A stretch of 33,894 bases of DNA from Flavobacteriales bacterium (GCA_023250995.1 JAHEZO010000012.1:1-33894); one strand, 5' to 3'; positions 1 to 33,282 are shown, counted from the first letter of the stretch. The notes: generated from the sequence alone by a model not told the origin. Numbers and translations: made by a program.

Positions 1-2900
1 CCAGAGCCGTTGTGGTTGGGATTAGTCAGGCTGCTTCCAGCGGAACCGGTAATGTGAGTGAAGTATTGACCAATACCACTACCGCACCTATCAATGTTAC
101 TTATGTTTATACTACCACCGCTAATAGTTGCAGCAACTCCGGCCAAAGTGTGGTGGTTACAGTAAACCCAACTCCTAATCTTAGCAGCTCTTTAACTCCT
201 TCTCCAATTTGCAGCGGAACAACTTTCAGCTATACAGCTACCAGCGCTACCTCCGGTGCTACCTTTGCCTGGACCAGAGCCGTTGTTGTTGGAATTAGTC
301 AGGCTGCTTCCAGCGGAACCGGCAATGTGAGTGAAGTATTGACCAACACCACTACCGCACCAATCAATGTAACTTATGTTTATACTACCACCGCTAATAG
401 TTGCAGCAACTCCGGGCAGAGTGTAGTGGTTACCGTAAATCCAACTCCTAATCTTAGCAGCTCTTTAACTCCTTCTGCCATTTGCAGCGGAACAACTTTC
501 AGCTATACAGCTACCAGTGCTACCTCCGGTGCTACCTTTGCCTGGACCAGAGCCGTTGTGGTTGGGATTAGTCAGGCGGCATCAAGCGGAACCGGAAATG
601 TGAGTGAAGTGTTGACCAACACCACCACTGCACCTATCAATGTAACTTATGTTTACACAACCACCGCTAATAGTTGCAGCAACTCCGGGCAGAGTGTGGT
701 GGTTACAGTAAATCCAACTCCTAATCTTAGCAGCACTTTGACCCCCTCAGCTATTTGTAGTGGAAATATTTTTAGTTATTCTCCAACAAGTTCAACATCA
801 GGGGCTACTTTTTCATGGTCAAGGCCGGCTGTGGCAGGTATTAGCCAGGCGGCTTCAAGTGGTACCGCTAATATTGCTGAAGTACTTACCAATACCACCG
901 CTGCACCAATTAATGTAACGTATATTTATACCACCACAGCCAATGGATGCGGAAATGCGGGCGAAAATGTAGTGGTAATCGTGAACCCGACTCCCAATTT
1001 AAGCAGTTCACTTTCGCCTGCGGGCATTTGCAGCGGATCAACATTCAGCTATTCGGCAACCAGTGCTACTTCGGGAGCCACATTTTCATGGAGCAGGGCA
1101 GCGGTTGCAGGAATTATTGAAGGAGCTTCCAGCGGAACCGGAAACATTAATGAACCCCTTACCAATTCCACTACAAATCCAATTAATGTAACTTATGTTT
1201 ACATTACCACAGCAAATAGTTGTAGTAACTCTGGGCAAAACGTTGTGGTTGTTGTTAACCCAACACCGGGGCTAAGCAGCACACTAAATCCCTCCCCCAT
1301 TTGCAGTGGAACAATCTTTAGCTATACAGCTACCAGTGCAACCTCAGGAGCAACATTTGCATGGTCAAGGGCAACTGTTGCAGGAATCAATGAGACGGCT
1401 TCAAGTGGAACAGGCAATGTAAGCGAAGTGTTGACCAATACAACCACTGACCCGGTGGATGTTACTTATGTTTACACTACTTCAGCCAATGGATGCGGAA
1501 ATGCTTCAGAAAATGTTATTGTAACTGTTAATCCCACACCCAATTTAACCAGTTCTTTATTACCTCCTGCTATTTGCAGTGGAAACACGTTCAGCTATAC
1601 ACCGGTTAGTGCAACTGCTGGAGCCACATTTGCCTGGTCAAGGGCAGCAGTGACAGGAATTAGTCAGCCCGCAGCAATAGGAATTGCTGATGTAACCGAA
1701 GTACTTACAAATACAACTGCAAATCCCATTAATGTAACCTATGTATATACAACATCGGCAAATGGCTGCTCGAATTCGGGGCAGAATGTGGTGGTAACAG
1801 TTAACCCTACCCCTTATTTAAACAGTACACTTTTACCTCCTGATATTTGCAGTGGATCCGTATTCAGTTATGCCGCCACCAGTGGTACTTTAGGTTCGGC
1901 ATTTTCATGGACAAGGGCTGCAATTGCAGGAATAAGTGAAGCAGCAACAAACGGAATAGGGGACATTAGCGAAACGCTTACAAACTCTACTACTGACCCA
2001 ATTAGTGTTATCTATGTTTACACCACCACGGCCAACGGATGCAGCAATTCCGGGGAAAATGTTGTTGTTACGGTAAACCCAATACCCATTTTAAGCAGTT
2101 CTCTGACCCCACCGGATATTTGCAGTGGCGATAATTTTAGTTATACACCTGTTAGTGCAACAGCTGGTGCAAATTTTTCCTGGAGCAGAGCTGCCATTGC
2201 CGGAATCAGTGAGGCATCAACCAGTGGAAGCGGTAATGTAAGTGAAACATTAACAAACACCACCACCAACCCAATTAATGTTACGTATGTGTTTAGCACC
2301 GATGCCAATGGTTGTAACAATTCAGGGGAGAATGTTGTTGTGGTTGTTAATCCTATCCCCAACCTAAGCAGTTCACTTACTCCACCGGCAATTTGCAGTG
2401 GTAATACTTTTAGCTATGTCCCATCAAGCGCCACGAGTGGAGCAACGTTTACCTGGTTAAGAGCGGCCGTTGCAGGGATTTCAGAGGCCGCTTCCTCAGG
2501 AAGTGGTTTTGTAAATGAAGTTTTAACAAATACAACCACCGCCCCGATAACTGTAATCTACGTAATTACAACCTCAGCAAATGGTTGCAGCAATTCAAAT
2601 GAAAATGTTGTTCTCACTGTTAATCCAATTCCATTTTTGAGCAGCACATTAAGCCCTCCTCCCATTTGCAGCGGAAATTTATTTGGTTATACACCTGCAA
2701 GTTCAACTTCAGGAGCTACATTTTCCTGGACAAGGCCTGCTGTTGCCGGGATAACAGAAGCCGCTTCAAATGGGTTGGGAAATGTGAGCGAAACATTAAC
2801 CAACTCAACCACCAATCCGATAATTGTTACTTACGTATTCATCACCCTTGCCAATGGCTGCAGCAATTCGGGAGAAAATGTTGTGGTTACAGTAAATCCG
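1..2900 (+). repeat. Tandem 273-bp coding repeats (PKD-like, 11 copies, first partial)
   Basis: The period is 273 bp (91 codons), seen from the same heptad at 171, 444 and 717. Each unit begins LSSSLTPxxICSG, has SATSGATFxW in the middle and ends NVVVTVNPxPN. The first three copies are very similar in DNA; copies further right are progressively more different. The period is a multiple of three, so gain or loss of units keeps the frame. Confidence 0.9.
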
Positions 2901-5900
2901 CTTCCGGTAGTTTCCTTTTCAGGGCTTGCGGCCAATTATTGTATTGATGCACCTGCGGCATTACTAAGCGGAATTCCATCCGGGGGAACTTTTTCAGGGA
3001 CAGGCATTTCCGGTAATTCTTTTTTCCCAGGAATAGCAGGAGCGGGAACTTTTATTGTTACCTACACTTTCACCGATGGAAACGGATGTACAAACTCCAT
3101 TGGACAGTCAGTAATTGTTAATGATCTTCCGGTTGTTTCATTTTCCGGCTTGGGCGGTCCATATTGCATAAGCCAGACCTCTCCCGTTCCCCTTACCGGC
3201 ACTCCTTCCGGAGGCACATTTACGGGTACAGGAATTTCAGGGAATAATTTCACCCCATCGTTAGGGGTAGTCGGGATTAACACCATAACCTATACTTATG
3301 TGGACGGAAATGGATGCACCAATAGTTCTGTGCAAAACACTACTGTTATCGGATTGCCCATAGTAAGTTTTTCGGGGCTTTCTAATGTTTACTGCATTAG
3401 TGACTCCTCACCAATAACATTAACCGGTTATCCAACTGGTGGAAGTTTTATTGGAAATGGCATCACAGGGAACATTTTCATTGCTTCTTCTGCCGGATTT
3501 GGCAATCATATTATCACCTATAATTATACTGATGCAAATGGATGTACAAATTCACAAAGCCAGACTGTTGTGGTTGTTAATTTACCCGAGGTTTTTATTG
3601 CAGGCCTTGATTCCTCTTATTGCTTAAATGGAACTACCGACACACTTACCGGTTTTCCGCAGGGGGGAAGTTTTAACGGCAATGGTATTACAAATAATTT
3701 TTTTAACCCCGCCATTGCAGGATCCGGTATGCATTTAATTTCCTATACATATACTGATACCTTTTCGTGCACCAACGATACTTCGGTTTTTGTTCAGGTC
3801 AATGATCCACCTGTAATATCGTTCACCGGATTGGCCACGGGGTATTGCGAAAATGAGGCCTCTCAGATTCTTGCCGGAAATCCTTCCGGAGGCACTTTTT
3901 CCGGAATTGGAATCAGTGGAAATTCATTCTATCCTTCCATTGCAGGAACAGGAACCCATTCCATAACTTATTCCTATAGCGATGCAAATAATTGTTCAAG
4001 TTCCATCAGCCAAACGGTGGATGTATTTTCATCTCCTGTAGTTAGTTTTATCGGACTGGCGGGGCCATATTGTTTGGATGTTGGTGCCGTATCAATGACC
4101 GGAAACCCATCAGGGGGAACTTTCAGCGGACCTGGAGTGTCAGGGAATGTATTTGACCCCTTTTTAGCTGGGGCAGGAACTCATACTGTAGTTTATTCTT
4201 ATGCAGATGCCAATGGCTGCTCTGACAGCTCCTCCCAAATTATTATTGTGAATGCTTTGCCCGTTGTTGATTTTGCAGGACTTGATTCGGTATATTGTGC
4301 AAACGGTATTGCTGATCAGCTTTCCGGGTTGCCCTCGGGAGGCACTTTCAGTGGCACCGGGATTTCTGCAAGTAATTTTGATCCGACCCTTGCGGGAACC
4401 GGAACTCATCTTATAACCTACTCATATTCTGATGGAAATGGATGTTCCAATGATACAACCAAATCCACGCAGGTGTTTAATGAGCCTTCAGTTTCTTTTA
4501 GCGGACTTGCATCAGGCTACTGCAAAAACGATTCTTTTGCAATCATGACCGGAACTCCTGCAGGAGGTTCCTTCTCCGGAACCGGAATAATCGGAAATTC
4601 CTTCTATCCATCAATTGCAGGAGTTGGAACTCACACCATCACTTATACAAATAGCGATGGAAATAATTGTTCGAATTTCACAACCCAATCGGTGGAGGTA
4701 TTTGCATCACCAGTGGTTAGCTTTAGCGGACTTGCCGGGCCTTATTGTTCGGATGGTGCAGTTGTATCTTTGACAGGAAACCCCGGAGGGGGAAATTTCA
4801 GCGGACCGGGAGTTTCAGGAAATTCTTTCGATCCTGTTCTGGCGGGAGCTGGGAATCATACCATAATTTATACCTATGCAGATATAAATGGATGCGCTGA
4901 CAGCTCTTCTCAATTTGTTTTAGTGAATGACTTGCCGATAGTGGATTTTGCCGGCCTTGATTCTGCTTATTGCATAAACAATCCTGCTGATCAACTATTG
5001 GGATTGCCGGCCGGGGGAAATTTTAGTGGTAATGGAATTTCTTCAAATAATTTTAATCCCTCGGTTGCAGGAATTGGAACACATGTAATTAATTATACCT
5101 ATACAAATACCGCTGGTTGCACCGGAACAATATCAAAAAACACTATTGTTAATGCTGCCCCTACCGCAACAATTACTGCCGGTGGACCCACCTCCTTTTG
5201 TCAGGGGGGATCGGTTTCCCTCACCGTAAATTCCTCGGTAAGCTATCAGTGGAGTACCGGGGCCCTTACACAATCCATTAATGCCAACACTTCGGGTACT
5301 TATTTTGTAACGGTTACCAATGCTAGCCTTTGCAGTGCATCAGCCAGCATATTAATCAATGCCAATAATAATCCCTCCTTAGCTGTTTCAAGCATTACAA
5401 ATGCCAGTTGCAATGGGTTGAATAATGGAAAGGCCTCGGTAACCGTATCAGGGGGATCTTTTCCATATAGTTTTTTATGGGACAATAATGCCTCCAGTCA
5501 AACCAGCCCAACAGCCACCGGTTTAAGTGCCGGCAACTATTCAGTTACCGTAACTGACATTAATAATTGCCTTGCTACCCTTATGGTTACAATTACTAAT
5601 CCTTCAGGACTGGGCGGTGTAACATTCTCTTCAAACACCTGCACCGGAGGAAGCACCGGGTCAGCATCGGTAAATGCTTCAGGAGGTACCTCTCCTTATA
5701 ATTATTTGTGGGACACAAATGCCTCGGGTCAAACCAGCTTTACCGCAACCGGACTTGGAGCCGGGCTTTATAGTGTTACAATTACTGATGCAAATTTATG
5801 TACCCTTGTTACAAGTCAAACCGTATTAGCCACGGATGCGGTATTTCTAGCTTATTCCGTTTTGCCTTCATGTGCAGGTGGAGCCAATGGCAGTGCTACC

Positions 5901-7907
5901 GTTACAGCAAATGGAGGAATAACCCCATACAGTTATCAATGGGATACAACAGCATTTAATCAAATTAGTCCTACAGCCACTGGACTCACCGGGGGAAATT
6001 ATTCTGTTACAGTAAGTGATTCAAACAATTGTATTTCCGTTGCATCAGTTAACGTTGGACTCGTTCCAGGCCTTAACCTTTCCATCTCCTTTAACGGTGG
6101 CTGTGACGGTGGAAACAGCGGAAATGCCACTGCAACCGTTTCAGGAGGCACTCAGCCCTATTCATTTTTATGGGATACCGCTGCAGGAAACCAAATCACT
6201 CCAACGGCATCAGGGCTTTCCTCAGGAGTTTTCGGTGTAAAAGTTACTGATATGAATGGATGTTTTGCACAAGACAGCATAACTGTAATTGTTCCCCAAG
6301 CTTTTTCTGTAACTCTCACCTCGACCGATGTTACTTGTGGAGGAGCAGACGATGGAACTGGTTCAGTAGCGGCTTCAGGTGGTACTTCCCCTTATTTTTA
6401 CCAATGGAGCGGAGGCCAAAGTTCTTCGAGCGCCATAGGACTTGGGGCTGGAATTTACTCAGTAACCGTAACAGATTCGAAAGGATGCATGGATACACTT
6501 CTTGCAACCATCAATGAGCCTGTTCCTGTTTTAATTTCTGACACTTCTACACCTGCAGATTGCGGTGTAAATAATGGAACTGCAACCGTATTGGTAACCG
6601 GAGGAACATTTCCTTACGGGTACCTTTGGGATAGTAATGCTTCGGGGCAAACTTCTCCTGTTGCCACTAACCTAGGTGTTGGAATTTATACTGTTACTGT
6701 TACCGATTCAAATGGTTGCATTTCAATTGCAAACATTGTTGTTAACGGGAGCTCCGGTCTTATTCTTGGCGTTACTTCAACTAACGCATCCTGCAATGGT
6801 TCCCAGGACGGAACTGCCGTGGTGGTGGCCAACGGTGGAAATTCCCCATATATTTATTTATGGAGTGATGGTCAAACGAATTCAACCGCCAGCGGACTTG
6901 GAGTAGGTACATATTACGTAACAGTTACAAATGCAGACAGCTGCCTTTCGTTTGACTCGGTTACAGTAACGCAACCACCACCTGTAATAGCCACCATTTC
7001 AAACGATACTACAATTTGCAGCGGTGATTCCATTGATCTTTTCATTACCGGTGGCTCAGCATATCTCTGGACCAGTGGAGACAGCACTCCGGCCATCCGA
7101 GTTGCCCCAAACATTACAACCATATATTCTGCCGGGGTTTTTGATAATTCACAATGCATGACCACCGTATCTGTCAAGGTAAATGTGATTCCATTGGTTA
7201 AAGCTACAATTTCAGGAGATACCGAAATTTGTCTTGGAAAATTTGCAAGCATTAATGCAAATGGGGGTACAAATTATTTATGGAGTACGGGTGAAACATC
7301 TCAAACAATTACGGTTAATCCCGGAATAACTACTGTTTACTCAGTTACAGCCACAAATGCCTGTTTTGTTGATTCAACTTCAGCCCAGGTGAACGTGAAC
7401 TATATTATTTCAACCATAACACCAGACGATACCATTTTATATGGGGACAGCATACAATTAAATGCCACTGGCGGGTTGCAATATCAGTGGGAACCATCTA
7501 CCGCCCTGAGTTGTACCGATTGCTCCAATCCTATTGCTAATCCGGTGGAAAACATTACTTATTTTGTTACCATAACCGATGCTGGCGGGTGCTCAGGAAT
7601 AGACACCGTTTTTATTTCGGTGGATGATTCAAAATCACTTTTTGTTCCTAATATTTTCTCTCCCAATGGAGATGGCGAAAACGATATTCTTTATGTTTAT
7701 GGAAAAGGCATAGTAAAAATAATTTTTAATATTTACGACCGTTGGGGTGAAAAAATATTTGGGACCGAAAATAAATTGCAAGGCTGGAATGGAATCTCTC
7801 CAATAAATTCCCATTATAATACGGGTGTGTATGCCTATGTTCTTTTCGTTGAATTTTATGATGGCACCACCCAAAACCTTAATGGAAATATTACCCTTGT
7901 AAAATGA
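1..7907 (+). CDS. Giant repetitive surface adhesin with SprB repeats and T9SS type B sorting domain (5' partial)
   Basis: The frame is open from base 3, so the start and signal peptide lie outside the window; about 2,634 residues are present. In order: the end of one and then ten complete PKD-like repeats of about 91 residues (to about 2900), ten repeats of about 75 residues with a VVSFSGL...YC signature (2901-5156), one Ig-like segment, seven SprB-type repeats ending in YSVTVTDxNxC (about 5371-6980), two or three further Ig-like segments, and a C-terminal domain from about 7641 beginning FVPNIFSPNGDGEND and containing IYDRWGEKIF. That last domain is the gliding-motility/CHU_C type B sorting signal of the type IX secretion system. 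Paired cysteines in each repeat suggest disulfides. Known relatives (SprB) are mobile cell-surface adhesins for gliding or attachment; that role here is inferred. Thr/Ser/Asn-rich composition fits an extracellular fibre. Confidence 0.9.
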   Translation, partial: RAVVVGISQAASSGTGNVSEVLTNTTTAPINVTYVYTTTANSCSNSGQSVVVTVNPTPNLSSSLTPSPICSGTTFSYTATSATSGATFAWTRAVVVGISQAASSGTGNVSEVLTNTTTAPINVTYVYTTTANSCSNSGQSVVVTVNPTPNLSSSLTPSAICSGTTFSYTATSATSGATFAWTRAVVVGISQAASSGTGNVSEVLTNTTTAPINVTYVYTTTANSCSNSGQSVVVTVNPTPNLSSTLTPSAICSGNIFSYSPTSSTSGATFSWSRPAVAGISQAASSGTANIAEVLTNTTAAPINVTYIYTTTANGCGNAGENVVVIVNPTPNLSSSLSPAGICSGSTFSYSATSATSGATFSWSRAAVAGIIEGASSGTGNINEPLTNSTTNPINVTYVYITTANSCSNSGQNVVVVVNPTPGLSSTLNPSPICSGTIFSYTATSATSGATFAWSRATVAGINETASSGTGNVSEVLTNTTTDPVDVTYVYTTSANGCGNASENVIVTVNPTPNLTSSLLPPAICSGNTFSYTPVSATAGATFAWSRAAVTGISQPAAIGIADVTEVLTNTTANPINVTYVYTTSANGCSNSGQNVVVTVNPTPYLNSTLLPPDICSGSVFSYAATSGTLGSAFSWTRAAIAGISEAATNGIGDISETLTNSTTDPISVIYVYTTTANGCSNSGENVVVTVNPIPILSSSLTPPDICSGDNFSYTPVSATAGANFSWSRAAIAGISEASTSGSGNVSETLTNTTTNPINVTYVFSTDANGCNNSGENVVVVVNPIPNLSSSLTPPAICSGNTFSYVPSSATSGATFTWLRAAVAGISEAASSGSGFVNEVLTNTTTAPITVIYVITTSANGCSNSNENVVLTVNPIPFLSSTLSPPPICSGNLFGYTPASSTSGATFSWTRPAVAGITEAASNGLGNVSETLTNSTTNPIIVTYVFITLANGCSNSGENVVVTVNPLPVVSFSGLAANYCIDAPAALLSGIPSGGTFSGTGISGNSFFPGIAGAGTFIVTYTFTDGNGCTNSIGQSVIVNDLPVVSFSGLGGPYCISQTSPVPLTGTPSGGTFTGTGISGNNFTPSLGVVGINTITYTYVDGNGCTNSSVQNTTVIGLPIVSFSGLSNVYCISDSSPITLTGYPTGGSFIGNGITGNIFIASSAGFGNHIITYNYTDANGCTNSQSQTVVVVNLPEVFIAGLDSSYCLNGTTDTLTGFPQGGSFNGNGITNNFFNPAIAGSGMHLISYTYTDTFSCTNDTSVFVQVNDPPVISFTGLATGYCENEASQILAGNPSGGTFSGIGISGNSFYPSIAGTGTHSITYSYSDANNCSSSISQTVDVFSSPVVSFIGLAGPYCLDVGAVSMTGNPSGGTFSGPGVSGNVFDPFLAGAGTHTVVYSYADANGCSDSSSQIIIVNALPVVDFAGLDSVYCANGIADQLSGLPSGGTFSGTGISASNFDPTLAGTGTHLITYSYSDGNGCSNDTTKSTQVFNEPSVSFSGLASGYCKNDSFAIMTGTPAGGSFSGTGIIGNSFYPSIAGVGTHTITYTNSDGNNCSNFTTQSVEVFASPVVSFSGLAGPYCSDGAVVSLTGNPGGGNFSGPGVSGNSFDPVLAGAGNHTIIYTYADINGCADSSSQFVLVNDLPIVDFAGLDSAYCINNPADQLLGLPAGGNFSGNGISSNNFNPSVAGIGTHVINYTYTNTAGCTGTISKNTIVNAAPTATITAGGPTSFCQGGSVSLTVNSSVSYQWSTGALTQSINANTSGTYFVTVTNASLCSASASILINANNNPSLAVSSITNASCNGLNNGKASVTVSGGSFPYSFLWDNNASSQTSPTATGLSAGNYSVTVTDINNCLATLMVTITNPSGLGGVTFSSNTCTGGSTGSASVNASGGTSPYNYLWDTNASGQTSFTATGLGAGLYSVTITDANLCTLVTSQTVLATDAVFLAYSVLPSCAGGANGSATVTANGGITPYSYQWDTTAFNQISPTATGLTGGNYSVTVSDSNNCISVASVNVGLVPGLNLSISFNGGCDGGNSGNATATVSGGTQPYSFLWDTAAGNQITPTASGLSSGVFGVKVTDMNGCFAQDSITVIVPQAFSVTLTSTDVTCGGADDGTGSVAASGGTSPYFYQWSGGQSSSSAIGLGAGIYSVTVTDSKGCMDTLLATINEPVPVLISDTSTPADCGVNNGTATVLVTGGTFPYGYLWDSNASGQTSPVATNLGVGIYTVTVTDSNGCISIANIVVNGSSGLILGVTSTNASCNGSQDGTAVVVANGGNSPYIYLWSDGQTNSTASGLGVGTYYVTVTNADSCLSFDSVTVTQPPPVIATISNDTTICSGDSIDLFITGGSAYLWTSGDSTPAIRVAPNITTIYSAGVFDNSQCMTTVSVKVNVIPLVKATISGDTEICLGKFASINANGGTNYLWSTGETSQTITVNPGITTVYSVTATNACFVDSTSAQVNVNYIISTITPDDTILYGDSIQLNATGGLQYQWEPSTALSCTDCSNPIANPVENITYFVTITDAGGCSGIDTVFISVDDSKSLFVPNIFSPNGDGENDILYVYGKGIVKIIFNIYDRWGEKIFGTENKLQGWNGISPINSHYNTGVYAYVLFVEFYDGTTQNLNGNITLVK
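2901..5156 (+). repeat. Tandem coding repeats of about 75 residues, VVSFSGL...YC type (10 copies)
   Basis: Ten units each start with a variant of VVSFSGLxxxYC, have a central PSGGTFSGxGISGNxFxP stretch and end ITYTYTDxNGC. The copies diverge more than the first repeat block. Units 5-7 and 8-10 show the same alternating order of sub-types (SGY-C, GPY-C, DSxY-C), which suggests duplication of a three-unit block. Confidence 0.8.
5371..6980 (+). repeat. SprB-type repeats (7 copies)
   Basis: Seven units of about 75-80 residues have the pattern SCNGxxxGxAxVxxxGGxxPYxYLWD, then TxxGLxxGxYSVTVTDxNxC. This is the SprB repeat found in Bacteroidota surface adhesins, including the gliding adhesin it is named for. 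The seven final Cys motifs are YSVTVTDINNC, YSVTITDANLC, YSVTVSDSNNC, FGVKVTDMNGC, YSVTVTDSKGC, YTVTVTDSNGC and YYVTVTNADSC. Confidence 0.82.
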
Positions 7908-28264: not shown

Positions 28265-29584
28265 TTATTTTTTTATAAAAATAAACTGACCTCCTTCATC
28301 CCCCGAATTTTTTATTGCATTAAAATTGGGCGTTTGCTCAGAGTTATTCATCACTGGAATTTTTATATTTTCATAAAGCTGACTGGCATCCAAAAATTTT
28401 GAATTGTTTCCGTTTAAAATTTTAAGTACATAATATGCAAAAACCGAGTGGCCATCCCGGCCTCCGTCCATCACAGGTTCGATGCTGCCCGAGGTAAGGG
28501 CCTGCCTTGAAACCAAATTGTGCACGGTGGTATAATATCTTTCAGATTCTTCAAACGGAACCGAAACCGTAGATCCACGGAAAATATCCCCACTGAAACA
28601 GGCATCTGAAATTAACAACGTATGCTTAGATTTTATCCCTCCCAAAAAAGTTTGAATATCAGAATTAGAAATAAAATCAGAGGTAGAATTGGTATTTGCA
28701 TCCACCGGCACCCAAAAGCCTTTGTTTAATTCTTGCTTATATTGGCCATGACCCGAATAGTAAATTAAAACATTGTCCTCCTCTTTTGCTTTTGCCACCA
28801 GCGATTCAAGCTCCTGCAAGATTGCTTTTCGGGTGGCTTGTTCATTTACCAGGGTTTTGATTCCCTGGAATTTATATTTGGCCAATAGCAAATCTTCAAT
28901 TGCTACAGCATCATTTACAGCGTTTTTTAATGGGGGCCAGTAGCCGGAGTACTTATCTATGCCTATGATTAGCGCAAAATAATTTCCAATTTTCATTTCT
29001 TTGGGTTTAGAAACATTTAAACCTTTCAAAGGGTCGCCACCTCCACGGTAACCGGATAATTCAGCGGGTTCTTTTTTCCTTTCTTTGGGTTCGGGCATTG
29101 ATAAAATTGGAATAAGCTTGTCCTCTTCTTTATAAATAAGTTCATTTTTATATTGCGACAACTCATTAAAATCTGCTTTCCCCTCAGTTTCCGAAACATA
29201 ATTAATATTTTTATTGCTCAGCTGAAGGTAATAGGTTTTCCCGGGTTCAACAGGCAAGTCAAAAACATTTTCGCCTGGCATGGTGTTGCCAAGAATTACA
29301 GCATCTGTTTTAATTTTAAGGGTGCCTGCGGAGAACATTTTGTAAGAAATTCGAGAACCCGTTTGGAAGATATGAATAAGGCGATCGTTAAAATGAATTC
29401 TGTATTGGGTAGATCCCCCTCCCCCAGATTTCTGGCGGTAAATGTTAATGATTGAAAACTCATCTTCGGGGTTTGCTTGTTGGGCAATTAAATTAAAAAA
29501 AATAACAGGGAAAAGAAAAAGATTTAGAAAAAGAGCGAGTTGCCAAAACGAAATAGCCGGTAAAAAAATGATTGATTTTTTCAT
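28265..29584 (-). CDS. Exported caspase-like (peptidase C14, metacaspase-type) protein
   Basis: A signal peptide (MKKSIIFLPAISFWQLALF...LIAQQ) is followed by a DUF2846-like beta domain (YRIHFNDRLIHIFQTGS ... EPGKTYYLQLS, about residues 40-130) and a caspase p20-type domain from NYFALIIGIDKYSG. The catalytic His is in IYYSGHGQY and the Cys in LISDACFSGDIF. Start at 29584 gives a clean signal peptide; ATG at 29611 adds nine residues. The C-terminus GGQFIFIKK carries no T9SS sorting signal, so it is probably periplasmic or anchored. It is the last gene of a tight four-gene operon with a YidD-like protein and two related TPR proteins. Related proteins cleave after Arg or Lys; the target here is unknown. 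Confidence 0.88.
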   Translation of the reverse strand: MKKSIIFLPAISFWQLALFLNLFLFPVIFFNLIAQQANPEDEFSIINIYRQKSGGGGSTQYRIHFNDRLIHIFQTGSRISYKMFSAGTLKIKTDAVILGNTMPGENVFDLPVEPGKTYYLQLSNKNINYVSETEGKADFNELSQYKNELIYKEEDKLIPILSMPEPKERKKEPAELSGYRGGGDPLKGLNVSKPKEMKIGNYFALIIGIDKYSGYWPPLKNAVNDAVAIEDLLLAKYKFQGIKTLVNEQATRKAILQELESLVAKAKEEDNVLIYYSGHGQYKQELNKGFWVPVDANTNSTSDFISNSDIQTFLGGIKSKHTLLISDACFSGDIFRGSTVSVPFEESERYYTTVHNLVSRQALTSGSIEPVMDGGRDGHSVFAYYVLKILNGNNSKFLDASQLYENIKIPVMNNSEQTPNFNAIKNSGDEGGQFIFIKK

Positions 29585-29607
29585 AATCAAAGGTAAAAAA
29601 TGTTTTC

Positions 29608-30501
29608 TCAATGGGAAAAAACAAAATTCCCGGTGAGGTCAATTAAATGATTAAATTTTGAGTCCACCACACCTTTTAATTTTTTTTCGGCAAGGAGTTC
29701 GGCCTTTAAAAATCCCCCCCTATAATACCTAAAAAACCAATTAGCAGTAAAAAGGTAGGCATCAAGTATAGTATAAGCCAAACCTAAATGAATTGCGGCA
29801 CCCAAAATGGCACCGGTGAGAAGAAATGACTTGGCTGCATTTTTAAAATCTCCAATATATAGTTGGCCGGAGCCGGGCAAAATCATACTTAGAATTTTTG
29901 CCGTTTTGGGTTTTATTTTTTTTTCGGCCAAAATTATTTCTTTAAAAATTTCCCTCACCAAAACCGTGTCGGCATTACCCAGAATTTCCATAAATTCTTT
30001 TTCGGAGGCGGCATAATTTTTAATTTTAAAATTAACCACAGCAGAAAAAAATTTCTTTTTCTTTTGAAAATATTCGGTTAATTCATACTTCATGTCGAGG
30101 ATATTAACCATAGCAAAATGGGGATCGTTACACATAATGTTGCAAAGAATTTTTCCGAATTCGCCTTCAATTGCCATGCTGTCGGGCAAGGGGAGAAATT
30201 GATTTACTTTAACAAAACTGCTGCGGGCCTCCTCAAATTTATTCTGCCTCATTTGAGCATTTCCTTTCAATAGGTACGCTGCAGCCATTACATTATTATG
30301 TTCTTCAAAAAAGATAATCCTTTCGCATACATTAATGGCCTCTTCGAAGTTATTTCTTTCAAAATATTTCAGTGCAAGTTCCATGGCCACTGAGGATGTT
30401 TGAGAAATACTTAAAACCGGGATGGCAATAGAAATGGAAAAGCAAAAAACAATCTTTTTTATGGAGTAAGTATTAACAATACTTTGAAAAATAATTTTCA
30501 T
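29608..30501 (-). CDS. TPR-containing membrane protein, related to its upstream neighbour
   Basis: The first 34 or so residues form a signal peptide or anchor (VFCFSISIAIPVLSISQ). Two TPR-like helix pairs follow (AMELALKYFERNNFEEAINVCERI and AAAYLLKGNAQMRQNKFEEARSSF). The C-terminal third is membrane-like, with LSMILPGSGQLYIGDFKNAAKSFLLTGAILGAAIHLGLAYTI, a motif P-G-S-G-Q-x-Y also met in TM2-type and other small membrane proteins. The same arrangement, with P-G-L-G-K-V-Y and AA-SF at matching positions, occurs in the 30511-31317 gene, so the two are paralogues. The next gene starts 23 bp downstream. Function unknown; the TPRs suggest protein binding in the periplasm. Confidence 0.75.
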   Translation of the reverse strand: MKIIFQSIVNTYSIKKIVFCFSISIAIPVLSISQTSSVAMELALKYFERNNFEEAINVCERIIFFEEHNNVMAAAYLLKGNAQMRQNKFEEARSSFVKVNQFLPLPDSMAIEGEFGKILCNIMCNDPHFAMVNILDMKYELTEYFQKKKKFFSAVVNFKIKNYAASEKEFMEILGNADTVLVREIFKEIILAEKKIKPKTAKILSMILPGSGQLYIGDFKNAAKSFLLTGAILGAAIHLGLAYTILDAYLFTANWFFRYYRGGFLKAELLAEKKLKGVVDSKFNHLIDLTGNFVFSH

Positions 30502-30510
30502 GGCAAAAAC

Positions 30511-31317
30511 TCAATTTTCAGACACAATAATTTCATGCATCTCAGCTTTTATTTTTTCCCTGAACCATTTATTGTGATTTTTGGCTGCTTTAATTGCACC
30601 GTAAAAATTTCCAAAATACAACCCGGCACCAAGACCACCGTAAAACCAACCAGGGGCACTATAAATTCCTTTTTTATCAAAGCCCCGCCAGGCCAGAAAA
30701 GAGCATAAACTAACAGCCAGAAAGCTCATGGCGGCATCTGAATAATTTTTTGAATACACTTTTCCAAGACCCGGAATAACGGATAAACCCAGAGCAATGG
30801 CCGGAATTTTTTGTTTAAATTCAATCGCCTTTTCAAAAACCAACTTTTCTCTTTGGTTAGTAATCTTATCCTCCGGATTTTCCTTTTTTATTTTCTTAAT
30901 ATTTCCTGATAAAATGAGGGTCCTGGGGTAAATACTCTTTTTTTCATCTTCCAAAAGATTTTTGCAAGTTTGAGAGAAGGAAATTGCATTTTCAAATTTA
31001 TCTGATAAAAGAAGGGCATCGAGATACAACCTGGAGGAATTATGATCTTTGCCTTTTCCGGTAGAATCCAACAGGGCAATTGTTTTATCATACTTTCCTG
31101 AAAGGAAATAAGATTTTGAAAGGAGGAAAATAATGCTGTCAGTCCCCGGAGAAAAAAAAAGCAACCTTTCGTATTCTTTTACAGCCTTTTCGTAATCTCT
31201 CGAAGAAATAAGGTGATCAGCGAATTTCAGTGAATGGTCAAAATCATAAATGTTTTGTCCAAACGCCAAAGCCGGGAGAATTGTAAATAACCAGTAAGCA
31301 AGGGCAAATTTTTTCAA
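30511..31317 (-). CDS. TPR-containing membrane protein (paralogue of the next gene)
   Basis: A signal peptide (MKKFALAYWLFTILPALAFGQ) is followed by TPR-like helices (HLISSRDYEKAVKEYERLLFFSPGTDSIIFLLSKSYFLSGKYDKTIALL). The C-terminal part, KIPAIALGLSVIPGLGKVYSKNYSDAAMSFLAVSLCSFLAW, then GWFYGGLGAGLYFGNFYGAI, gives two or three membrane segments with the PGLG-x-VY signature. It overlaps the upstream YidD-like gene by 4 bp and is 9 bp from the next gene, so all are translated from one message. Function unknown. Confidence 0.75.
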   Translation of the reverse strand: MKKFALAYWLFTILPALAFGQNIYDFDHSLKFADHLISSRDYEKAVKEYERLLFFSPGTDSIIFLLSKSYFLSGKYDKTIALLDSTGKGKDHNSSRLYLDALLLSDKFENAISFSQTCKNLLEDEKKSIYPRTLILSGNIKKIKKENPEDKITNQREKLVFEKAIEFKQKIPAIALGLSVIPGLGKVYSKNYSDAAMSFLAVSLCSFLAWRGFDKKGIYSAPGWFYGGLGAGLYFGNFYGAIKAAKNHNKWFREKIKAEMHEIIVSEN

Positions 31318-31739
31318 GGCATGTCGATAAATTTTCCAGTGGCAATGTCAACTGAATAATTTCCTGAGGACATTCCGTGGCAACGGGTAAGACGGTCAAA
31401 GGTGCTTAGTATTCCTCTAAAGATTCCATATTTTTTTACACTTATTAAGCCATATTCTGAACAAGAAGGGGAAAAGGAACATGCTCCGGGGATATCCTGA
31501 GATGAAAAAAAACTTTTATAAAAAACGAAGAGTCCCGAGAAAACCAATTCAAATTCATTTTGGTTTTTTGAAATAGCAATGGAATATCTTTCATTTTTTT
31601 GCTTTTGCCCGGATTGTTTTAATATAGAAATTGGGGTATGGTTTTGAGAATGAGAGGCCATTGCGGTAAGAAAAAATCCGGTTAGCATAACAAATATTTT
31701 TCTGCAAAAAAAATTCCGGATTTTCAAAAGCAGGTTCAT
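31314..31739 (-). CDS. YidD-like membrane protein insertion factor with signal peptide
   Basis: The C-terminal half, FYKSFFSSQDIPGACSFSPSCSEYGLISVKKYGIFRGILSTFDRLTRCHG, is the YidD/DUF37 pattern with the three conserved Cys (C-x5-C and RCH). Normal YidD is about 70-90 residues, without a signal peptide, and sits beside yidC, rnpA or rpmH. This one is 141 residues, with an N-terminal signal-like segment (FVMLTGFFLTAMASHSQ) and a 50-residue insert, so the domain would be periplasmic. It starts a four-gene operon and shares a 4-bp overlap with the next gene. A role in helping the two following membrane proteins reach the envelope is a guess. Confidence 0.82.
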   Translation of the reverse strand: MNLLLKIRNFFCRKIFVMLTGFFLTAMASHSQNHTPISILKQSGQKQKNERYSIAISKNQNEFELVFSGLFVFYKSFFSSQDIPGACSFSPSCSEYGLISVKKYGIFRGILSTFDRLTRCHGMSSGNYSVDIATGKFIDMP

Positions 31740-31762: not shown

Positions 31763-31797
31763 AAAAAAAAAGGAAGATCCCGGTTCCGGAATCTTCC
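31763..31797 (-). terminator. Rho-independent terminator of the lipoprotein/TRL operon
   Basis: Read on the minus strand, GGAAGATTCCGG and CCGGGATCTTCC form a 12-bp stem with one mismatch and a 2-nt tip (practically a 4-nt loop), followed by nine T. It separates the two minus-strand operons. Confidence 0.88.
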
Positions 31798-31822
31798 CTG
31801 CAATAAAAAAATAATTTTAAAA

Positions 31823-32278
31823 TTACTTTTTGTATTTGATTAGGCGGGCGTTAACAGTAACGGTAGTTGTTTGAATTATTGGAATTCCACAGGGCATTTT
31901 CTGCTCAATTTTGTAGTTAGGAGAAAGCACTCCGTCATACCCTGGGTTTTGTTCCATCAAATTAAAAAGTGCAATTGATTTTGCAGCACCTGTTGGGTCG
32001 GCTAATCCGGCCAAACAGCAACCGGTAGGCATTGCCACACCACCTTGACCCCATACGGATACAGAACCGGCTTTATCATTTTCGCCTATGGAAAATCCAA
32101 GAATGAGTTTGGCTTCCCCTTTGGCTGATTTTATTTCGGATAATTCATAGTCTCCTTTTGATAATTCAACATAATTTGGCTGAAGGTTTCCCTGATTCAT
32201 TTTCAGGTTACAGCCCGAATTAATTAATAATGCACCAAAAAGTGCAATGGTTCCGGTAGTAGAGATGATCTTATTCAT
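31823..32278 (-). CDS. Lipoprotein of unknown function
   Basis: The lipobox is LINSGC (Cys 23). The mature part is a small domain with the pattern YELSEIKSAKGEAKLILGFSIGENDKAGS, then AAKSIALFNLMEQNPGYDGVLSPNYKIEQ, ending in TVTVNARLIKYKK. The arrangement of a glycine-rich strand, an Ala-rich helix and GYDxVLSPxY resembles small Bacteroidota lipoproteins of the DUF6567 kind and shares the theme of the TRL proteins encoded just upstream. The first gene of the operon is at 33282; this is the last, ending at a clear terminator. Probably outer-membrane or periplasm-facing; role unknown. Confidence 0.72.
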   Translation of the reverse strand: MNKIISTTGTIALFGALLINSGCNLKMNQGNLQPNYVELSKGDYELSEIKSAKGEAKLILGFSIGENDKAGSVSVWGQGGVAMPTGCCLAGLADPTGAAKSIALFNLMEQNPGYDGVLSPNYKIEQKMPCGIPIIQTTTVTVNARLIKYKK

Positions 32279-32344: not shown

Positions 32345-32623
32345 TTATTCTCCGGTTACTACCGTAGAAAAAGTTTGTGAAAATAGCCCACCTTTAACTT
32401 TCCAGTCTACCGTTGCAACTTTTGAAATCCCACCCTTTTTGGCAGCGGTGGCAATGCTCAAATCTGTATTTCCAAAAGCAATTCCCAGAAAAATTTTTCG
32501 GGAAGCTTCTCCTCTTTTTGTTCCAACCGGATTATCGGTAACCATTAAAGGACCGGTAACCGAACAGGATGCAAGAGAACATAAAGCTACAATTACAATT
32601 GAGTATTTTAATGCTTTTTTCAT
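32345..32623 (-). CDS. TRL-like family lipoprotein (copy 3)
   Basis: The 92-residue protein has a lipobox ending SLASC (Cys 20), then SVTGPLMVTDNPVGTKRGEASRKIFLGIAFGNTDLSIATAAKKGGISKVATVDWKV and the C-terminus TTVVTGE-like VVTGE. The pattern NPVGxKxGxA ... IxxAAKxGxIxKxxTVD is that of the TRL-like family (tRNA-associated locus-like proteins, first noted in Leptospira). Function is unknown. It is cotranscribed with two other copies; here no tRNA gene is adjacent. Confidence 0.85.
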   Translation of the reverse strand: MKKALKYSIVIVALCSLASCSVTGPLMVTDNPVGTKRGEASRKIFLGIAFGNTDLSIATAAKKGGISKVATVDWKVKGGLFSQTFSTVVTGE

Positions 32624-32654
32624 GTTTTTTATTTTTAAGTTTAAAGGAAAAAAA

Positions 32655-32987
32655 TTATTCTCCGGTTACAATAAATTCTCTCTTAATAAAAAAAAGATAA
32701 CTCGTGGTTTTTAAATCAACACTCCCAATTTTGTCAATTTTCCCTTTTTTGGCCGCTTCTACAATTCCAAAATTAGAATTCGACATAATTCCATGGTAAA
32801 GCAAAGCTCCGGAATGTGGCAAAACTCTTGTCCCGCCTGCACCCATGCCGGTGAAAAAACATAATGTGGAAGAAACTCCGGTCTTTTTACCAACTGTATT
32901 ATTGGTAACTGCAAAGGGAACAGTTACAGCACAAGAGCTGAACAGAATTACCCCTAAGGAAATGATAAATATTTGTTTCAATTTCAT
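32655..32987 (-). CDS. TRL-like family lipoprotein (copy 2, with insert)
   Basis: The 110-residue protein has a lipobox LFSSC (Cys 19), then AVTVPFAVTNNTVGKKTGVSSTLCFFTGMG. An insert of about 20 residues (GAGGTRVLPHSGALLYHGIMSNS) sits between the two conserved halves; it is absent from copies 1 and 3. The family ending FGIVEAAKKGKIDKIGSVDLKTT and the C-terminal VTGE are intact. The start is 25 bp after copy 1, and the stop is 31 bp before copy 3. Confidence 0.83.
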   Translation of the reverse strand: MKLKQIFIISLGVILFSSCAVTVPFAVTNNTVGKKTGVSSTLCFFTGMGAGGTRVLPHSGALLYHGIMSNSNFGIVEAAKKGKIDKIGSVDLKTTSYLFFIKREFIVTGE

Positions 32988-33012
32988 ATACTTTTTTTTT
33001 GTTTTTAAATAA

Positions 33013-33282
33013 TTATTCTCCGGTAACAGTTGTTTTTATCAAAGGAAAAATAAAAACAAAGGTTGTTCTTTGTTCCACCGTTCCGATTTTGGTTATTTTT
33101 CCGTTTTTTGCGGCTTTTTCGAGTGAAATATCCTGATCCTTTGAAAAAAGCCCAAGTTTTGCAACTCCGGTTTTTGATCCCACCGGATTATTGGTAAGCA
33201 TATAAGAAGTCGTTACGCAGGAGGTAAAGCCCATGAAACAAATTCCTAATATGGGGAGAATTAATTTTGTTGATTTTTTCAT
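33013..33282 (-). CDS. TRL-like family lipoprotein (copy 1)
   Basis: The 89-residue protein has a signal sequence with lipobox GFTSC (Cys 22). The conserved core is SYMLTNNPVGSKTGVAKLGLFSKDQDISLEKAAKNGKITKIGTVEQRTT, ending VTGE. It is the first gene of the four-gene lipoprotein operon. The upstream 234 bp is AT-rich and shows no convincing TAnnTTTG site. Confidence 0.85.
   Translation of the reverse strand: MKKSTKLILPILGICFMGFTSCVTTSYMLTNNPVGSKTGVAKLGLFSKDQDISLEKAAKNGKITKIGTVEQRTTFVFIFPLIKTTVTGE

Follow-up and report, generated by a model that had tools for sequence, protein, structure and literature searches.

Gene content of the locus

The DNA analyzed here (the window; 33,894 nt, GCA_023250995.1 JAHEZO010000012.1:1-33894) is a contig (C327) of the 3.6-Mb draft genome, 92% complete, of a Flavobacteriales bacterium, and it carries four closely packed minus-strand genes at 31739–28265, designated yidDx, tprA, tprB, and casp. 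They encode, in this order, a homologue of YidD that is predicted to be exported, two paralogous proteins with tetratricopeptide repeats (TPRs) and a PGxGxxY motif, and an exported caspase-like peptidase; the first three belong to an operon that recurs in Bacteroidota, and the fourth looks like a rare addition to it. An earlier note on this DNA had described the four genes as packed on one strand, and its coordinates and spacing were reproduced by open reading frame (ORF) calls: yidDx and tprA overlap by 4 bp (TTGA; the tprA start is TTG), and gaps of 9 and 23 bp precede tprB and casp, respectively. In each of the four products, the N-terminus is hydrophobic up to a glutamine (hydropathy), the residue typical of the signal peptidase I site in Bacteroidota substrates (PMC5837995).

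yidDx (31314–31739) encodes 141 amino acids, of which residues 1–31 form the predicted signal peptide (31647–31739), followed by Gln32 (hydropathy, alignment, and the glutamine rule of PMC5837995). The YidD domain (31356–31541) includes the invariant cysteines C87, C93, and C120 and the motif DRLTRC; it was assigned by Pfam (YidD, PF01809; E 7e-17, 61.4 bits against a cut-off of 27), by TIGR00278 (49 bits against a cut-off of 40), and by its position in the tree described below. TprA (30511–31317) consists of a signal peptide, a TPR-like region, the motif PGLGKVY (30754–30774), in which P182, G185, K186, and Y188 are invariant among 12 aligned members, and a hydrophobic C-terminal region. Its paralogue TprB (29608–30501) has a signal peptide, TPRs, and a DUF5683-like C-terminus with the motif PGSGQLY (29857–29877). 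TPR families score above the Pfam cut-off in both, so that the earlier description of two related proteins joining TPRs to a PGxGxxY motif holds. DUF5683 is weak in TprB of the window (18 bits against a cut-off of 26.7) and not listed for TprA; among relatives it is found in 10 of 12 TprB and 5 of 12 TprA members. The two proteins share a PGxGxxYxG motif with the DUF5683 and TM2-like families and differ from them in the TPR domain fused in front and, in the window, in falling below the DUF5683 cut-off.

casp (28265–29584) encodes 439 amino acids from its ATG; an in-frame TTG at 29611 is an alternative start that would lengthen it by nine codons. Behind the signal peptide lies a DUF2846-like N-terminal domain (29195–29455; E 2e-4), followed by the junction motif YRGGGDPLKGLN (29015–29050), where a constant caspase cassette begins, and by the C14 caspase domain (28319–28978; Peptidase_C14, E 1.3e-20, 74.6 bits against a cut-off of 21.4, covering positions 3–224 of the 233 in the profile). 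The catalytic dyad, His279 in YYSGHG (28748–28750) and Cys329 in DACFSG (28598–28600), is invariant in all eight aligned members. The DUF2846 match of the window protein (19.5–21.8 bits) is below the cut-off of 34.3, and the family matches all four aligned relatives (best E 3e-6). No type IX C-terminal sorting domain (Por_Secre_tail, CHU_C, and others) was found in Casp, although other genes of the window carry one. The signal peptide, the DUF2846-like domain, and the missing type IX tail had all been read from the sequence before and are borne out.

A separate YidD clade with fixed partners

In E. coli, YidD is a factor on the cytoplasmic side of the membrane, and to our knowledge the family has so far been known only as a helper of YidC from that side. 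Two papers (PMC8082313 and PMC3573977), each with reference to Yu et al. (2011), assign E. coli YidD a function in membrane protein insertion. YidDx shares with YidD (PF01809/TIGR00278) a homologous domain, three cysteines, and the G..G spacing. Unlike canonical YidD, which has 69–92 amino acids, YidDx proteins have 127–182 and a signal peptide; the canonical KRI..CHPWGG..DPVP tail is replaced by DRLTRC (DRLxRC) and a different tail; and the gene sits in another operon and forms a clade of its own. In a tree of YidD domains, exported (n = 15) and canonical (n = 9) sequences separate with support of 100/99. Gln32 is invariant across 13 YidDx sequences, even though the relatives are only 27–46% identical to the window protein, and this invariance at a signal peptidase site predicts export (PMC5837995). 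Canonical short YidD is retained in all 14 genomes that were checked, with one copy each (frames of 71–95 amino acids, 96–107 bits) beside one or two long copies (49–66 bits). The canonical copy of the window genome follows rnpA on another contig (C161), which is consistent with the earlier remark that the YidD-like gene of the window lies far from yidC; yidDx itself is not short, does not lie in an rnpA-yidC neighborhood, and does not group with canonical YidD. YidDx is a paralogue of YidD, and every genome that was checked holds the canonical gene in addition. Neither YidDx nor the LolA-like family described below had any match among solved structures. At three loci (L056, L057, and L071; G, C, and L numbers denote genomes, contigs, and loci), two divergent yidDx-tpr operons lie near each other on opposite strands of one genome, one for each YidDx subtype.

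The conserved unit is yidDx-tprA-tprB, usually with a LolA-like gene in front and often with a small TM2-like gene, rather than the four-gene set of the window. Orthologues of tprA were found in class-level relatives (search of 60 relatives), where the recurrent gene order is small TM2-like gene, LolA-like gene, yidDx, tprA, tprB. Among 395 genomes that represent the class, about 80 (hand count), from about 30 families, have a YidDx-type ORF, defined as at least 120 amino acids with E about 1.5e-20 or better, and the set also occurs in another class of the phylum (G497, G480). Among 48 yidDx copies, 46 are followed on the same strand by a tpr-family gene and 33 by two such genes, and a LolA-like gene lies upstream of 35 and a small gene of 20. 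The first 12 loci had been selected by tprA and are thus biased; the unbiased figure comes from the 35 copies selected by YidD alone, where a tpr gene follows yidDx in 33 cases and a LolA-like gene precedes it in 24 (hand count). The partner resembles LolA-like outer membrane lipoprotein-sorting proteins (PF17131) weakly and is encoded upstream in most relatives; it differs in scoring below the Pfam cut-off and in having no counterpart in the window genome as assembled, in which no convincing match to LolA-like or TM2-like profiles was obtained. The operon of the window is accordingly a reduced form.

The proposal of the earlier note that the four genes make up a coherent envelope module thus stands in part: the yidDx-tprA-tprB operon is conserved, and more broadly than first seen, but the set that includes the caspase is not the conserved unit. 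Unlinked orthologues in relatives had been named as an observation that would speak against it; the outcome is mixed, in that the first three genes stay linked, whereas most members of the caspase family lie apart from them. Of the two parts of the finding, the exported YidD clade and its fixed partners are the better founded. A separate clade of this kind, spread over about 30 families, implies that the YidD fold has been reused outside the cytoplasm, and it gives direct access to the question of what the fold itself does. Nothing relevant to the gene set, to an exported YidD, to YidD with LolA, or to DUF5683 was found in the open-licence PMC literature.

A link between yidDx and type IX secretion was considered and dropped: of 80 genomes, whether they have yidDx or lack it, 77 encode SprA, which thus explains nothing, and yidDx was seen near sprA only in one family (f4; G049, G118). 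An exported protein of about 310 amino acids recurs beside the yidDx operon (L045, 1707–2651; L030, 9570–10502; L027, 9213–10145; L067, 6682–7617); it had no Pfam match in the two members tested, and may be a further member of the operon.

The caspase and its linkage to the operon

The solved structures closest to Casp are metacaspases, and these proteins share with it the C14 domain and the His-Cys dyad; Casp differs from metacaspases and orthocaspases in its DUF2846-like N-terminal domain and in its linkage to the YidDx-TPR operon. In metacaspases, an aspartate two residues before the catalytic cysteine goes with a preference for arginine or lysine. Casp has an aspartate at this position, which, together with its nearest structures, suggests the same preference. 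Hydrophobic N-terminal segments that may be signal peptides, and operon-borne C14 genes, were noted for prokaryotic metacaspases in a 2012 survey (PMC3501461), and an exported caspase is therefore not new in itself; no paper that treats DUF2846 together with a caspase was found in the open-licence PMC literature.

From about residue 170, at the motif YRGxGDPxKGLN, the protease half of Casp is a cassette that is 60–76% identical across many families, and elsewhere the N-termini joined to it are completely different (WD40, LRR plus WG repeats, propeller-like, and others). The window genome has four such genes, and the three besides casp do not lie near yidDx. Members of this exported family are found in G000 (contigs C271 and C178; L049, L050) and at L048, L051, L052, L053, and L055. 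In three genomes, large sensors of the Reg_prop-Y_Y_Y-SpoIIE type (Pfam was run on one of the three) directly adjoin cassette caspases (L048, 6432–9722; L051, 963–4307; L065, 13101–16319), and sensor and caspase could form a signaling pair.

The DUF2846 type of caspase adjoins the yidDx operon in four families. In G127, contig C5 ends with lp1-yidDx-tprA-tprB (lp1 is a small lipoprotein gene described below) and contig C197 starts with the end of tprB, followed by casp and another exported gene; we infer that the two contigs join, with no exact overlap between their ends. Between the window and G127, identity is 72% in the protease half and 58% in the N-terminus of Casp, 54% in YidDx, 52% in TprA, and 43–55% in two parts of TprB. 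In G008 the DUF2846 part directly follows tprB, and the contig end cuts the gene where the repeated cassette begins; in G231 the linkage is loose, the DUF2846-caspase lying about 2.1 kb behind the tprB-like gene of a yidDx-tpr set. A profile of the four DUF2846-caspases found no other strong member in 395 genomes, in a search that is partly circular. A profile of the window and G127 proteins missed G008; its best independent match was the G231 protein (2.5e-13), and the next (3e-6; L125) was a protein lacking the caspase half. A counter-example to strict linkage is a divergent C14 gene of G231 (C17, L126) that matches the DUF2846-caspase profile weakly and is unlinked to yidDx. Two DUF2846-like proteins were rejected as caspases, since the caspase half gave no match: a neighbor in G006 (L078, 539 amino acids), where the likeness is weak, and the L125 protein of G005.

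The association of the caspase with the operon looks real but rare, which marks the caspase as an add-on. Nearly all copies of the module have no caspase, and most C14 genes of the class are located elsewhere; as a general claim, the earlier proposal of a module built on limited proteolysis is unsupported.

Possible functions and flanking genes

We favor, tentatively, the view that the locus represents, in a form particular to its lineage, an envelope-assembly operon conserved in Bacteroidota, which works at the periplasmic face and to which a conditional periplasmic protease has been added. The anatomy of the genes is as described above; the mechanism we infer for them is as follows. A YidD domain moved across the membrane, a LolA-like carrier, and TPR/PGxG partners together point to hydrophobic cargo handled at the periplasmic side of a membrane, where the products of the operon would act. 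In genomes that have the LolA-like protein, it would carry this cargo, which the TPR domains would dock; YidDx, on the membrane, would assist the entry or folding of the cargo, in the way that canonical YidD assists YidC at the cytoplasmic face. Small exported TM2-like proteins encoded nearby are candidate cargo. Export of Casp and its metacaspase-type site suggest conditional cleavage after arginine or lysine in the periplasm or beyond. A caspase with this probable specificity and a DUF2846-like sensing or docking domain, having joined the operon in this lineage, might under stress trim or degrade the cargo or the proteins of the module. Were the module to deliver proteins into a membrane from the periplasmic side, this would add a new step to envelope assembly in Bacteroidota, and the added caspase would be a bacterial one with a tie to the maintenance of the envelope instead of to cell death. 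A bolder version, in which a second, periplasm-facing YidD machine (LolA-like carrier, YidDx, and two TPR/PGxG scaffolds) inserts exported small helical membrane proteins or lipoproteins, in some lineages under a dedicated exported caspase, is unlikely as it stands.

Several observations weigh against this reading. The window genome, which has the caspase, lacks recognizable LolA-like and TM2-like genes and with them a part of the proposed pathway, and the likeness to LolA is itself slight (best Pfam E 0.0075; 3 of 10 members). YidDx has lost the CHPWGG..DPVP tail, and a retained role in insertion is our assumption. Few copies of the module come with a caspase, which can therefore not be essential to it. 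A common transcript for the four genes is a prediction, and promoter patterns of the form TTTG-N-TANNTTTG occur in the window at chance level. Single-sequence AlphaFold2 models of TprA and Casp were unusable (mean pLDDT, the predicted local distance difference test score, 39 and 36, respectively).

A quite possible alternative, if a somewhat doubtful one, keeps the YidDx-TPR operon as an envelope module and takes the caspase as an independent exported sensor-caspase that landed behind tprB and serves regulated death or stress signaling upon envelope damage or intruders. It would account for a protease half that is nearly constant across many genomes behind differing N-termini, for the three further genes of the window genome away from yidDx, and for the family members that adjoin Reg_prop-Y_Y_Y-SpoIIE type sensors at other loci. 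However, the DUF2846 type adjoins the yidDx operon in four families, and the gene for the best independent match to the profile of the window and G127 proteins again follows a yidDx-tpr set, at a distance of about 2.1 kb, the weaker matches (E 3e-6 or worse) being of another type. It is improbable that the N-terminus of YidDx is an uncleaved anchor and its YidD domain cytoplasmic, as in a simple second helper of YidC: a single strongly hydrophobic segment is predicted in YidDx and YidD acts on the cytoplasmic side in E. coli, but the glutamine at the predicted signal peptidase I site is invariant at low overall identity, the partners of YidDx are all exported, and a canonical YidD invariably accompanies it in the genome. 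That YidDx disrupts membranes and that its operon serves as a device for lysis or death, triggered by the caspase and with a logic like that of bacterial gasdermins, is very improbable: the YidD family was once named haemolytic, with a Bacillus relative able to lyse cells (PMC3573977), and the PADLOC caspase model matches Casp, a likeness to caspase-gasdermin and other caspase-bearing defence systems, but YidDx and TprA match no defence family, TprB matches only a marginal AbiEi model (0.0019), gasdermin models match none of the four products, Casp, unlike caspases of such systems, is exported with envelope proteins as conserved partners, and the core operon lacks a caspase nearly everywhere.

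Upstream of yidDx lies lp1 (31823–32278), a small lipoprotein gene on the same strand that is 74% identical to the gene at the same position in G127. A terminator-like hairpin of 13 pairs with a T tract (31770–31799, minus strand) separates the two genes, and a long hairpin is also found in the lp1-yidDx gap of G127. Probably, then, yidDx opens the transcript and lp1 is on a separate one; the sequence suggests that lp1 and three TRL lipoprotein genes are transcribed apart from the operon. Three tandem TRL-family lipoprotein genes adjoin the yidDx operon in the window (32345–33282) and in G171 (L059, 7302–8240), and lp1-like lipoproteins also adjoin it in G127, G302, and G227. At the other end of the window, a very long ORF (12–7907) with PKD-like regions, SprB repeats, and a CHU_C type IX secretion domain encodes a surface protein of the gliding or adhesin type.

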